Shown here: in pieces, positions 13,441-35,238 of the stretch
How positions within the stretch are numbered: the stretch's first letter is position 1
Layout: every line of letters begins with the position of its first letter
Source: Xylogone sp. PMI_703
Taxonomy: Eukaryota > Ascomycota > Leotiomycetes
Assembly: GCA_021399445.1 (NCBI GenBank)
Contig: JAJTUQ010000001.1
Location: 4,092,001 to 4,156,000 of the forward strand
DNA length: 64,000 nt
Direction of reading: 5' to 3'
Notes under the pieces: generated by a model
What the model was told of the DNA's origin: nothing
Database searches by the model: none
Seen by the model: only the letters and a program-made list of their open reading frames with translations
Made by a program: the position numbers and the translations under genes

Positions 13441-15456
13441 TTAGTGACACTCAACTTGTGTCCCCGAGCTACATTCCGAGACGAGCTTGGCGAAGTTGCG
13501 CACGACCTCTGTGGGGACCTGGTCCCACAACAGCGAACGTGTGTAGACTTCGGCGGCCGACTTCTTACTGTTGATGCGCATCGCGGCGAGCGTCTCAGCT
13601 AAGTTGCGACGACCGGCCGAGGTCGAGGGCGCAGGTTTGTTCTGAAGGAAGTCTTGCGAGGTAACACCGTCGTACTGGGCAGCCGAGAGAGAGAAGACCT
13701 GTTCGTGATTCTGTTCCTCAGTGGGTTGAGTGAGGCTATCGGTGAGGGCAGCGAGAGTGGAAGAACCAACGCCGACCATGTCACCGCTGGCGGCAGTAGA
13801 GGGCATCATAGACCAAGAGGAAGCAGTACCAGAGGGCATGGACGTCGCAGATTCCACGATGGAAGTGGTGGCGGCTGGCACACCAGCATCCTTGAAGATG
13901 TCTTCCAAGAGACTGGCCGATGCAGCGCGGACATCGTCGGACATGCGGGGGATGCTGGGGGACCCACCCTTGGAGGCGACAAAAGCACCAAAGAGGAGGA
14001 GCATCAACAGCAGACCCTGAGCAGCCACGGGCTTCTCGGTATCGGCAAGCATGGCATCCTGGGCCTTCTTGGCAGGGACGATAGCGGTGGGCTCGACCTT
14101 GATCTCGCCATCGAGGGGATAGTCGAGGAAGGTAATGCTGTCCCAGGTGTCGTTCATGGTGAGGGTGTCGATATCGGAGTAGTCGGCAGTGAAGCCAGAG
14201 GAGCTGGGCATGGCGGACATGGCGGTGCTCTCCATCTTCTGCATGTGATCGGTGAGGATGCTGACCTTCTTGCGCAGATCGCCGGTCTCGATGGTATGTT
14301 GGCGCACCATCTCCTCCTTCTCCATCTGCATGCTCTCGATGTACTGCTGGTACTGCTGCTCCTTGCGAGCCCACTCGTCCATGGCGAGCTTGGCCTCGGC
14401 CAGTTCTTCCTCGAGCTCGGCGATCAGAGCAGTGTAGTGCTTCTTCTCATCCTCGAGACGCTCGGTATGTTGCTTCTTTCGTTGGCGCGAGTCAAGACTA
14501 GATCAAACCAAAAGAGTCAAATGTCAGTCTGGGATGGGGTCCATTTTGTTTTAAACCAAAGAAATTGTATATGTGGGGAGAGAGATGATGTAAAAACCAA
14601 AGAGATGTAAGACCAAAGAAAGTGTGGAGGGAGAATTGAGAAGAGAGAGAGAGGAGCCATACGCTGCTTGTCGATTGCGCAGAAGTCGCTTCTGCTGCTT
14701 GAGCTCCTTGATCTCTTGCTCGTCGGTGGAAGCGGCGATGAGCTGATCGATGTTGGTGAGGTTGCGCTCGGCGGGGATCTCGAAGCGAGCGTTCTTCTTG
14801 CGAATGCCATCACCACGACGGGTCATCTCAGGTTGAGAGCGCAAGGTCGGGCTGCGTCGGCCCATGCGGGTGGGCATGGCACGCGGGTCCATGGCCTCTT
14901 GCACGGCCCAGTCCTTCTGAGGAGAGGCGGGCATGGAGGCATTGTTGGCTCTGGTGGGAGTGAAGAGCGGCATCTGCTGGTTGTTGACGTTGGTGAAGGG
15001 CGTCTGGGCCTGCATGGGACGCTGGAAGACGGCGGCAGCGTTGACGTCGTACTCGGCGTGCAGACCGTCGTGCTGCATTGGGGTGCAGGCGCCAGAAGCA
15101 CTGCTCATGGACCAGCCGGCGTGGGTCTGGGCAGCATAGGAGTTCTGAGGAGCATCGAGACGCAAGAAGGGGTTGTGGCTCTGGTCGAGGAAGGGATTGT
15201 TGGAGCCCATGGGCCTCATGTCGACGTGCTGCCAGTCCTCAGTCTTGGGGGAGAAGATGCTGGAGGAGACGGCGAAGGAGTCGCGGCGGCTGCCGTTGAT
15301 AGGTGGGGACATCTCCAGGCCGGAGTCGAGAGCGCCTTGGTCGAGGATGTTGTCGTCTAGTATACTGCCTTCCTCGTCCTCGAAGTAGTTCTGAGTGTGG
15401 GTGTTGATGGACAGATCCGAGGAGCGGTAGAAGTTGTGCATTGGGAAGCCAGCCAT
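13441..15456 (-). CDS. meaB: bZIP transcription factor, MeaB type
   Basis: Exons complement(14663..15456) and complement(13441..14497); 1851 nt, 616 residues. The intron (GTATGG donor, ATCTAG acceptor) splits an Ala codon inside the basic region, joining LKQQKRLLRNRQAA to LDSRQRKKQHTERLE; the N-x7-R spacing NRQAALDSR is intact. A leucine-zipper/coiled coil follows (about 275-355, rich in Glu, Gln, Lys). The N terminus contains KTEDWQHVDMRPMGSNNPFL motifs. A hydrophobic run GLLLMLLLFGAFVA lies at about 426-439, and the C terminus (RRNLAETLAAMR, YTRSLLWDQVPTEVVRNFAKLVSE) is well ordered. This arrangement fits MeaB, a regulator of nitrogen metabolite repression in Aspergillus and Fusarium; the name is from recalled family features, so it is moderately sure. 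Isolated by 3.1 kb downstream and 8.5 kb upstream of gene-free DNA. Confidence 0.85.
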
Positions 15457-29319: not shown

Positions 29320-29338
29320 AAAAAAAAAATGAAAAAAA
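29320..29338 (-). terminator. Pol III T-run terminators of tRNA-Pro copy 1
   Basis: Two T runs on the minus strand (7 T at 29338-29332 and 10 T at 29329-29320) just downstream of the tRNA 3' end, as expected for RNA polymerase III termination. Confidence 0.8.
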
Positions 29339-29351
29339 TGATTAAATAGTT

Positions 29352-29479
29352 GGCGCAATCCAGGGATCGAACCTGGGACCTCTCGCACCCTAAGCGAGAA
29401 TCATACTAGTCAACGATGTTAGTCAATGATACACCAAGGCAGCTGGAGAACTTTCACTTACCCGCTAGACCAATTGCGC
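29352..29479 (-). tRNA. tRNA-Pro(AGG), copy 1, with 56-bp mRNA-type intron in the D-loop
   Basis: On the minus strand: acceptor 5' strand GCGCAAT (29479-29473), D-arm start TGGTCTAGCGG, then an insert at 29461-29406, then TATGATTCTCGC, anticodon loop TTAGGGT (anticodon AGG, no intron there), GCGAGAGG, T-arm CCAGG-TTCGATC-CCTGG, acceptor 3' strand ATTGCGC and discriminator C (29352). Without the insert the molecule is a perfect 72-nt tRNA very close to yeast tRNA-Pro(AGG) through the D and anticodon arms. The insert starts GTAAGTG, contains GACTAAC 15-20 nt before its end, and ends GACTAG: donor, branch point and acceptor of a spliceosomal intron. It lies right after the conserved G18-G19, directly behind the A box (TGGTCTAGCGG). 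The B box GGTTCGATCC is intact. Confidence 0.93.
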
Positions 29480-30630
29480 AATTTTTTATTTGGGGATCGA
29501 TAATTAGAATATATACACTACCTATCAGAAATCTGGCGGTCTCATGCTATTACAGCACTAAGTACAGGACCTCTTTGTAGTCCAACAACATAATTGATCA
29601 TGCACTTTAATCTTGTATCGTAATAGCACAATCTCGAAACCTTCGTACTTAAACACGATTCGCTACCAAAAGATCTAGTTCATAGGGACTAACATGATGC
29701 GAAAACATAGCAAAATGTCCAATGGTAAAATACAATACATTAATATTTCTTATATAACCTTGGTACACAAAGTTATGGGGATACAGGTTCAGCTCTGCTA
29801 GGCTATGGGGACAGAATCTCTGGTTTGAAGGCTGATTGTCTCTTAGCCTTGGGACCTTATTGTTTGCGGGTCCCTGTTTAAGGATAACTTATATCATAGA
29901 TATCGTAAATATATATTTGTATTAAGTTATTCTATAATCAGTGAGCTTGATTGGACTCTCCTGTCACACGATCCTCTCGGCGATTCTGGGGTGGAACTCA
30001 AAGTCCCGTCTAATCTCGACTCTCGTACAAAATTAGTCTAGGCTGGATCGAACTCTAGAAGAGCAAAGCGTTCAGGGGAATTCGAAGTTCGGGTTTTCTA
30101 TTCGATTGAATATCCGGTAAGGACTGCCATAAGTCGAACAGCAACAGGCTCCTGACTGAAAAACGCATCGCAGTGACACCTTCCACTGGTATCAGGGTCT
30201 ACGGCACGAGTATTGGGCAAATCATATGGAACAGAGACTCAATTAATCGAGAGTATAGATGATACTATCAATTCCTAAATCCGCTTTTTCGGCGTAAATT
30301 GGGCCCGCGTCATTGTTTGTAAGATACCTGTAAACTCGATAAATGGTGATCAGTGAGTTGTGGCAAGGTTGATTCAACTTATATATACAAACACATTCAA
30401 AAATCTACATACTGATTTCTCCTGCTTCCCTCGAGTAGCAAGAGGGGACGACTAAAAATGAGAGCCAATTAAGCGAGAGGGCAAGATGCACGAGAGCAAG
30501 AGCGCCCACGATGAAGAGAGAAATCCTCACGCGGCTGAATAACGTGGTTTGTGAATTAGTTTAAGATATTTCCAAAAATTTATGCTACTATACTCACACA
30601 GATGTTTTTGTTTAAAAAGAAAAAATGATT
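29480..30630. other. AT-rich spacer between the two tRNA-Pro genes
   Basis: 1.15 kb, AT-rich, no credible ORF. I see no clear long terminal repeat or target duplication, though old solo LTRs near tRNA genes could be too eroded to recognise by eye. Confidence 0.4.
30620..30625 (-). terminator. Pol III T-run terminator of tRNA-Pro copy 2
   Basis: TTTTTT on the minus strand, 6 nt after the tRNA 3' end and preceded by AATCA as in copy 1. Confidence 0.8.
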
Positions 30631-30759
30631 GGCGCAATCCAGGGATCGAACCTGGGACCTCTCGCACCCTAAGCGAGAATCATACTGAATCGGAGACGTT
30701 AGCTGTTGATACACAATGACAGCTGTTGACTTTTCGCTTACCCGCTAGACCAATTGCGC
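30631..30759 (-). tRNA. tRNA-Pro(AGG), copy 2, with 57-bp mRNA-type intron in the D-loop
   Basis: Same gene structure as copy 1 and identical mature sequence: GCGCAAT acceptor (30759-30753), TGGTCTAGCGG, insert at 30741-30685, TATGATTCTCGC, anticodon loop TTAGGGT, T-arm with GGTTCGATCC, acceptor end ATTGCGC plus C. The insert starts GTAAGCG, has AGCTAAC about 16 nt before its end, and ends GATTCAG. It lies at exactly the same nucleotide as in copy 1. The two inserts share GTAAG, GAAA, CAGCTG, GTGTATCA and CTAAC in the same order but differ elsewhere, so they are homologous introns that have diverged while keeping their splice signals. Confidence 0.93.
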
Positions 30760-33659: not shown

Positions 33660-34974
33660 ATGGTTTCTGTAAACGTAGGGAAAGCTCTCCAGGACCTCGC
33701 AGGTTCTGTGGACAAGCAACAAGGCTACACTACCCTCCTCGCAAACATCCAAATCGTCTCCACCGAAGCAACCGTTACCGACGACCTGATAGCAATCATT
33801 GACTCCATATTCGCAGAGGACTCCCTTGGAATCGTAGCCACGCGGTCTCTCCTGGCAACCTTCGTCGAAGCTCTGAATGGCATTCCCGACAATGACACGA
33901 AAATTGCCATCGGCGAGCACGCACTGTCCGTCTTGCAAGCACAAACCAGCTCTTTCGAAGAACAAAATGCTGCCATCCGAGAAGTCATGGCTACCGCACA
34001 CGAAGGTAACGAGGACTTCCTCGCCTCCGCAAGAATACTAGCTGGTATACCCATCGAATCATCACAGCGGAAAGTCACGAATGAGGAAAAAGTCCGCACA
34101 TGGATCCGGATTACTCGCAACTATCTCGAGGCGGAAGATCCCACGCTCGCAGAGCAATACTTGAACAAGGCAAAGAATATTATTTATACGGTTGAAGACC
34201 GAGAATTGAATCTACTGTTCAAGCTCAGTCAGGCTAGGATTCAAGACGCGAGGAGAGAGTTCCTAGCTGCCGCCCAGGGGTACCAGGATATCAGTTTCTT
34301 ATCCATAATTGCGGAGGAAGAGCGATTACACACATTAAGCATGGCGATAAAATGTGCTGTCCTTGCTCCTGCAGGTCCAGCACGAAGTCGTGCACTTGCA
34401 AGGCTATACAAGGATGAGCGGTCTTCTGGATTAGAAGAATACGGGATGCTGGAGAAGATGTATCTGGATCGATTGATCTCTCCAGCCGAGGTGTCCAAGT
34501 TCGCAGAGGGACTGGCTGAGCACCAGCTTGCGAAGACATCAGATGGGTCTACGGTCCTGGCTAAAGCCGTGGTGGAGCATAATTTGAGGAGTGCCTCAAA
34601 GTTGTACAACAATATCAGCTTTGATTCGTTGGGCTTGTTGCTGGGGCTAGACGAGGAGAAAGCGGAGATTACTACGGCAAGGATGATAGAGCAGGGACGG
34701 TTAGTAGGTAGGATCGATCAGATCGAGAGGGTTATTTGGTTCGAGGGTGGAGAAGCTACGGGAGAGAAGGGAAGCGGTCGAGCTGAGAGGATCGTGGGGA
34801 AGGAGTTGAAGAGGTGGGATGCTAATGTTCAGGGATTGGCTGAGGAGGTGGAGAAGGTAACTTCGGAATTACAAGTGCAATATCCGGTGAGTACATTTAT
34901 GCTCCTTTTCTTAACTGAACAGTCTAACTGATGATGTGAAATAGGAATTCGTCGCCGCTCATCTGGTAGTATGA
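33660..34974 (+). CDS. csnD: COP9 signalosome subunit 4
   Basis: Exons 33660..34886 and 34945..34974; 1257 nt, 418 residues. The short second exon adds EFVAAHLVV after the GTGAGT/ATAG intron; without it the frame ends in unrelated residues. The N-terminal two thirds is TPR-like helical (KVRTWIRITRNYLEAEDPTLAEQYLNKAKNI, LNLLFKLSQARIQDARREFLAAAQGYQDIS). The PCI domain spans about 200-370: KCAVLAPAGPARSRALARLYKDERS, EYGMLEKMYLDRLISPAEVSKFAEGL, VVEHNLRSASKLYNNISFDSLGLLLGL, then the winged-helix end MIEQGRLVGRIDQIERVIWFEGG. CSN4 is a core scaffold subunit of the COP9 deneddylase, which removes Nedd8 from cullins and in fungi links light and development. Confidence 0.94.
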
Positions 34975-35238
34975 TGAAGAGAATGCTCTGAATGAAACGA
35001 ATACGGGCGTTAGAGGCGGGGTTATCATTGCAAACTGGAGTTTAGGAACAGTATAATAAAGGTTAGAATCCACAATGCTTAAATTAAGCATTGAAAGTAC
35101 TTTGAGCTGAGAGCTCCTGTGACTGGACTATACAATGTGATATGGAGTTTGCCCCAATCCAGTCTCAACAAACAAGCAGCAATCTTGATCCTCTTCTGTC
35201 ACCCAAGCCCGACAAAGAGAGAAATATGGAGTAATTCC

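Follow-up and report, generated by a model that had tools for sequence, protein, structure and literature searches.

Two tRNA-Pro(AGG) genes of the fungus Xylogone sp. PMI_703 are interrupted in the D-loop by inserts of 56 and 57 nt that have a GT start, a branch-site-like CTAAC and an AG end. At least 25 tRNA genes of this genome carry such or related inserts, 25 of 28 of which are GT-AG, and both good U6 genes are interrupted likewise. The inserts are, with a probability of about 0.87, U2-type spliceosomal introns in Pol III genes that would be spliced before the SEN endonuclease acts. This reading is drawn from genomic sequence and suggests that the spliceosome of this fungus helps make tRNAs. 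The removal of tRNA introns is assigned by textbooks to a different enzyme, and we know of no reason for the spliceosome to meet tRNA genes. The window is the whole stretch of 64,000 nt that was analysed, and positions without a locus label refer to it.

Two interrupted tRNA-Pro(AGG) genes in the window

Copy 1 is encoded on the minus strand from 29479 to 29352 and, read base by base, consists of GCGCAATTGGTCTAGCGG, a 56-nt insert (29461-29406) and TATGATTCTCGCTTAGGGTGCGAGAGGTCCCAGGTTCGATCCCTGGATTGCGCC. The 5' exon (29462..29479, minus strand) covers positions 1-19 of the tRNA and includes the A box, and its sequence is identical in copy 2. The 3' exon (29352..29405, minus strand) covers positions 20-73, with the anticodon AGG and the B box. 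The intron (29406..29461, minus strand) lies between G19 and T20, a border set by alignment to a third gene, L033, that is insert-free at this site. It starts with GTAAGT, holds TTGACTAAC and ends with GACTAG; the branch-site-like CTAAC (29418..29422, minus strand) is 12 nt upstream of the intron end. A run of seven T (29332..29338, minus strand) follows the gene and is a likely Pol III terminator. The original prediction held that deleting the insert leaves a perfect 72-nt tRNA-Pro and that the insert carries donor, branch-like and acceptor sequences. The latter are present in the sequence, and the former is borne out at base level and by ARAGORN, which calls the spliced copy 1 a 72-nt tRNA-Pro(AGG) and the unspliced copy, with introns allowed, a wrong tRNA-Ser. 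For the whole window the tRNA tool at default settings returns no tRNA, and there is no Rfam match at gathering thresholds.

Copy 2 (30759-30631, minus strand) has the same anatomy. Its 5' exon (30742..30759, minus strand) is identical to that of copy 1, and its 3' exon (30631..30684, minus strand) is assigned from sequence, alignment to copy 1 and ARAGORN after splicing. The 57-nt intron (30685..30741, minus strand), placed by sequence and alignment, reads GTAAGC...GCTAACG...TTCAG and ends in GATTCAG; its branch-site-like CTAAC (30698..30702, minus strand) lies 13 nt upstream of the intron end. A run of six T downstream (30620..30625, minus strand) is again a likely Pol III terminator. Once the 56- or 57-nt GT-AG insert is deleted, both copies reduce to an identical 72-nt tRNA-Pro(AGG), with a complete cloverleaf in ARAGORN, internal promoter boxes recognised by eye and the downstream T runs. 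The exons are identical at 72/72 positions and the inserts at 39/57, and similarity in the flanks does not exceed that of shuffled sequence, a pattern that is expected with selection on the tRNA and not on most of the insert.

A third tRNA-Pro(AGG) gene and the placement of intron borders

A genome-wide DNA search found the third Pro(AGG) locus, L033, on another contig. This gene carries three inserts. The first lies between positions 14 and 15 (GTGAGT...CAACTAAC...CCCAG) and the second between 32 and 33 (GTAAGT...CCTAAT...CCACAG). The third is a 19-nt insert at 37/38 that contains CTCTAA, complementary to the anticodon loop, as expected for a SEN intron. Removal of all three, two GT-AG inserts and one at 37/38, yields the same 72-nt tRNA as the window copies. 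The three Pro(AGG) genes thus have GT-AG inserts in two D-loop registers and at one anticodon-loop site, and one identical tRNA. Since L033 and the window copies are each uninterrupted at the other's GT-AG sites, the genes fix one another's borders with no use of splice signals. Alignment to L033 allows two equivalent placements of the insert in both window copies, and one of the two is GT...AG. The copy 2 insert and the first insert of L033 have a common stretch (AAGTCAACA/TGTCATTG) that scores 13, as high as the best of 2000 shuffled pairs. This stretch suggests that an intron has slid along the gene by 4 nt with the mature tRNA sequence unchanged.

Borders were also placed blind to the signals at other sites, with the exon taken from an uninterrupted paralogue or from a gene interrupted elsewhere and the insert set by best match alone. 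There were 19 such comparisons, with one Met case run a second time against the reference L015, and GT-AG was among the one to six equally good placements in every case. Counting each site once and leaving out the slid Pro site, the best placement allows GT-AG at 10/10 sites with a reference (eight tRNA, two U6). If sites and bases are independent, log10 P is about -21, so chance is excluded.

Interrupted tRNA genes across the genome

T-arm patterns, tRNA family searches, DNA searches and the reading of loci revealed inserts in at least 25 tRNA genes, 28 inserts in all. The genes belong to ten groups: Pro(AGG) 3, Pro(TGG) 2, Thr 4, Phe 3, elongator Met 1, Ile 1, Arg(TCT) 2, Arg(ACG) 3, Leu(AAG) 4 and Leu(TAA) 2. 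The four Thr genes have the anticodons AGT (twice), TGT and CGT, and an acceptor-stem mismatch is seen by eye in the TGT and CGT copies. One search for tRNA loci covered 100 of 218 places, and 35 of these 100 had a complementary T stem; of the 35, 14 lay in known stretches and 19 were newly read. ARAGORN reports 82 distinct loci in the DNA examined, 17 with a listed insert and 65 others that probably include false calls, which puts the affected share at roughly 25 of the 90 or so tRNA genes seen. The spliced sequences receive the expected isotype and anticodon from ARAGORN in 21/25 genes, compared with 5/25 unspliced. The exceptions are Met L123, Ile L098 and Leu L154, which are misread, and L159, which gets no call.

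Counted by eye, the inserts lie at 14/15, 16/17, 18/19, 19/20 (the window copies), 21/22, near 23/24, 25/26, 26/27, 31/32 and 32/33 and in the variable arm. By our own count, the inserts occupy 13 gene-specific sites, which correspond to 11 tRNA positions. The description of these introns as D-loop introns holds for the window copies at 19/20 and does not hold genome-wide, where 25/26, 26/27, 31/32, 32/33 and the variable arm are also used.

The imperfect inserts are found in two groups. In Arg(ACG), the L166 insert is GT-AG with a CAG end, and a T run follows the gene; the other two inserts end in TG and CG, and L155, one of these two copies, also has a shortened D loop. L147, L155 and L166 are perhaps a natural decay series. 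In Leu(TAA), one insert has GC-AG ends and a poor donor (GCGGTT), and the other gene is without one base of the tRNA body and gets no tRNA call even when spliced. A short direct repeat, GGCGGTT or a similar sequence, borders the GC-AG and GTGGTT-CAG inserts of the two Leu(TAA) genes, L154 and L159.

Three intron-bearing Thr genes, with the anticodons AGT, TGT and CGT, form a cluster (L076; G000:C12:4218600-4220050), with two uninterrupted Thr(AGT) genes some 25 kb away. By eye and uncounted, several tRNA genes among L001-L166 seem to have a common CCAATCAA-like motif ahead of them, which may be an upstream promoter element.

Intron signals

Of the 28 tRNA inserts, 25 are GT-AG, and the exceptions are GC-AG, GT-TG and GT-CG. 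The 25 GT-AG inserts are 49-59 nt long. Their 5' ends are most commonly GTAAGT (11), followed by GTGAGT (4), GTAAGC (3) and other sequences (7), and their 3' ends are TAG (13), CAG (10) and AAG (2). The branch site was taken as the best of ten branch-like motifs between 4 and 25 nt from the intron end. In fungal U2-type introns the branch motif RCTRAY stands from a few to about 36 nt upstream of the AG. In 25/25 inserts the distance from the end of the best motif to the intron end is 8-14 nt; any branch-like motif falls in that range in a mean of 3.3/25, and at most 9, when interiors are shuffled (500 runs). The motifs are CTAAC (12), TTAAC (7, not a strict RCTRAY), CTAAT (4), CTAAA (1) and GTAAC (1), the last being the weak best match of Arg(TCT) L142. 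CTAAC, TTAAC or CTAAT is in range in 23/25 inserts, compared with 1.4 in shuffled inserts (maximum 5, 500 runs). The longest T run within the GT-AG inserts is 4, and a run of this length is probably too short for Pol III termination in a fungus.

The ordinary 37/38 introns of the same genome are 9-51 nt long, and 0/32 are GT-AG even when equivalent placements are allowed. The window introns lie at 19/20 and not at 37/38, the position of canonical SEN-type introns. One mRNA intron of the window, in the CSN4 gene and placed by eye against a Scytalidium homologue, shows a matching layout (GTGAGT...TCTAACTGATGATGTGAAATAG). A scan of the window for intron-like motifs gives 19, compared with 20 in the reversed control. 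Group I and group II self-splicing introns were rejected, as their catalytic cores need hundreds of nt, the inserts have 49-59 nt and the window has no Rfam match at those thresholds for gathering family members.

U6 and 5S genes

The U6 snRNA is also encoded by interrupted genes in this fungus. A U6 family search, in which 47 of 3687 candidates were scored, gave two good U6 genes, and both are interrupted, with four GT-AG inserts at three sites. The gene at about 1455-1612 of locus L143 has one GT-AG insert. The gene at about 1405-1665 of locus L144 has three, and the ACAGAGA box is itself split by one of these. After insert removal the two U6 sequences are identical over 103 nt. No contiguous U6 gene was found by the family search (47 of 3687 candidates scored) or by a genome DNA search. 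The original prediction had drawn an analogy to U6, and it holds in the same genome, where both good copies are interrupted in the same manner. Because U6 is essential, insert-bearing Pol III transcripts must be spliced here, provided that no U6 gene is absent from the assembly or overlooked by the searches. Three further candidates were set aside: L145 is a degenerate copy, L169 is a 3' U6 fragment and L146 was judged a chance match. The 5S rRNA, another Pol III product, has at least 28 dispersed genes that are contiguous as matched, among 47 of 2097 candidates scored; interrupted ones could escape such a search.

Uninterrupted genes and alternative explanations

All loci found for three isoacceptors are interrupted. 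DNA searches, with two patterns for uninterrupted forms, returned 3/3 interrupted loci and no uninterrupted one for Pro(AGG), and the genome DNA search gave the same outcome for Leu(AAG) (4/4) and Arg(ACG) (3/3). Such searches reach close relatives only, and a diverged uninterrupted gene could escape them. Uninterrupted Pro(AGG) genes as the true source of the mature tRNA had been named beforehand as the finding that would count against splicing, and the searches returned none. With only interrupted genes found for Pro(AGG), Leu(AAG), Arg(ACG) and U6, removal of the inserts looks obligatory for these four RNAs. Uninterrupted members exist in the Thr, Phe, Met, Ile and Pro(TGG) groups, and probably in Arg(TCT), for which the DNA search gave two contiguous relatives.

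These uninterrupted members favour the proposal that the interrupted genes are silent pseudogenes and that the tRNAs are made from intact genes. The damaged look of two Arg(ACG) copies and one Leu(TAA) copy also favours it, and excerpts of PMC4090602 state that eukaryotic tRNA genes with short D- or T-arm insertions are mostly supposed pseudogenes. The proposal is nevertheless very improbable. It is opposed by the groups for which genome searches found no uninterrupted member, by the exons of copies 1 and 2 that stayed identical while inserts and flanks diverged, and by a mature sequence that is intact although one intron seems to have slid. The original prediction had weighed spliceosomal processing against a silent gene, and the former is much better supported by the three Pro(AGG) genes that reduce to one tRNA. 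It is further backed by 22 other insert-bearing tRNA genes, three of whose inserts have imperfect ends. A second proposal concerns the enzyme: the inserts could be ectopic tRNA introns that the SEN endonuclease cuts at bulge-helix-bulge motifs, as in archaea and Cyanidioschyzon. The genome has SEN candidates (two PF01974 matches), and the same excerpts (PMC4090602) record ectopic introns of other lineages, in the D arm and at further positions. The copy 1 precursor places its insert within a long hairpin (z -1.47, not significant), and copy 2 is without such a fold. A bulge-helix-bulge test with two geometries, from which L166, L167 (two inserts) and L168 were left out, is in the best register weak even on canonical controls (5/32, shuffled 0.8) and gives 1/21 for the inserts (shuffled 0.6). 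SEN cleavage is highly unlikely, as the GT-AG ends that mark the inserts and not the canonical introns, together with CTAAC, are signals that SEN has no need of, insert length and branch distance are uniform, and U6 carries the same signals.

The inserts could also be a family of introner-like mobile elements that mimic introns, whether removed or not. Many sites are hit in one gene class, and same-site inserts of paralogues are often alike. The comparison of 25 inserts (21 tRNA and 4 U6, with L166, the two of L167 and L168 left out) speaks against a family, as pairs from unrelated sites (n=300) score at most 12, and the 2000 shuffled pairs reach up to 13, with their 99th percentile at 10. A mobile family is thus an extremely remote prospect; it concerns the origin of the inserts and is compatible with spliceosomal removal.

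Proposed processing

Under the preferred reading, in which the inserts are spliceosomal introns, Pol III would transcribe each gene from the A and B boxes, both of which are still present. Since the inserts are located within or downstream of the A box and upstream of the B box, the internal promoter should remain functional. The nuclear spliceosome would recognise GTRAGT, the CTAAC or TTAAC branch site and AG, excise 49-59 nt as a lariat and join the exons. Where a 37/38 intron is also present, the SEN endonuclease and ligase would remove it afterwards. L033 fits this order, as its second GT-AG insert splits the anticodon loop (32/33) and the SEN substrate would form only after spliceosomal removal. 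Inserts in the D-loop should disturb RNase P and Z processing unless they are removed early. This point speaks against the preferred reading, as do the imperfect Arg(ACG) inserts and Leu(TAA) genes, the Thr acceptor mismatches, the weak branch match of L142, the spliced genes that ARAGORN misreads or misses, the 5/25 expected calls before splicing and the contiguous 5S genes. The exon-intron anatomy, the signals, their recurrence, the identical products and the four RNAs with no uninterrupted copy found are read directly from the DNA; transcription, lariat splicing and the order of the steps are deduced from them.

It is fairly probable that the spliceosome is an essential tRNA-maturation enzyme in this fungus, with at least three isoacceptors (Pro-AGG, Leu-AAG and Arg-ACG) and U6 encoded only by intron-split genes. 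Translation would then depend directly on nuclear pre-mRNA splicing. The spliceosome would need the splicing of its own U6 for its renewal, in one copy even across the ACAGAGA box, and some tRNAs would require two splicing systems in a fixed order.

Comparison with known introns

Introns of the mRNA type occur in the U6 snRNA genes of fission yeast and other fungi, and Canzler and colleagues have reportedly surveyed U6 introns in fungi. The tRNA inserts resemble these in being short GT-AG introns with a branch site in a Pol III gene; the U6 RNA itself sits in the spliceosome, whereas the hosts here are tRNA genes. Lichen fungi have spliceosomal introns in rRNA genes, which are likewise mRNA-type introns in a structured RNA that is not made by Pol II, but interrupt a Pol I transcript. 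Canonical SEN introns share with the inserts their place in nuclear tRNA genes, and many affected genes carry one too; they differ in their 37/38 position and, in this genome, in the absence of GT-AG ends.

The fungal U3 snoRNA also has spliceosomal introns. As described in passages of PMC5832005, which also cites a survey on fungal U6 introns, these are GT-AG introns with an RCTRAY branch and a mean branch-AG distance of 15. They average 92 nt and lie almost all in one stem-loop. U3 paralogues with and without introns occur, and intron sliding is discussed (PMC5832005). The tRNA inserts thus share with them a structured noncoding host, GT-AG ends and a branch site, intron-bearing and intron-free paralogues and apparent sliding, but the host RNA differs, the length is 49-59 nt and 13 sites are used. 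Ectopic tRNA introns are the other comparison. Passages of PMC4090602 describe tRNA genes of the Guillardia nucleomorph, Cyanidioschyzon and Crenarchaeota that hold multiple introns, with positions in the D and anticodon arms. The archaeal and Cyanidioschyzon introns are tied there to bulge-helix-bulge motifs, and those of Guillardia are 3-24 nt long, their removal being called unexplained. The arrangement is like that of the inserts, which differ in their spliceosomal signals. Nucleomorph small RNAs are treated in PMC6461891, as far as its excerpts show, and tRNA splicing is called spliceosome-independent in a passage of PMC13149111. A search of open-licence PubMed Central gave, among the matches listed, no earlier report of spliceosomal introns in tRNA genes; most subscription papers lie outside that scope, so priority is likely and unproven.

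Implications and other features of the window

If tRNA genes can be spliceosome substrates, gene finders can miss them, and published fungal tRNA sets may be incomplete. Translation and splicing would also be coupled in a new way. Intron insertion into tRNA and U6 genes is also relevant to the spread of spliceosomal introns. For U6, a suggested route is reverse splicing into RNAs close to the spliceosome, and tRNAs would lengthen the list of targets. With intron-bearing and intron-free paralogues and one seemingly slid intron, gain, loss and sliding can be tested against an exactly known product.

Two protein-coding features of the window were also seen. A possible bZIP transcription factor extends over two frames at 13441-15456 and is perhaps HAC1-like, a name given by eye; the part of it that was tested has no family match. 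The gene for COP9 signalosome subunit 4 (CSN4) lies at 33660-35100 and has a terminal intron (GTGAGT...CTAAC...TAG). By this gene the fungus looks like a leotiomycete close to Scytalidium: among the 120 matches listed, the closest named homologue is that of Scytalidium lignicola (92%), and the other named matches that were recognised are from leotiomycetes.
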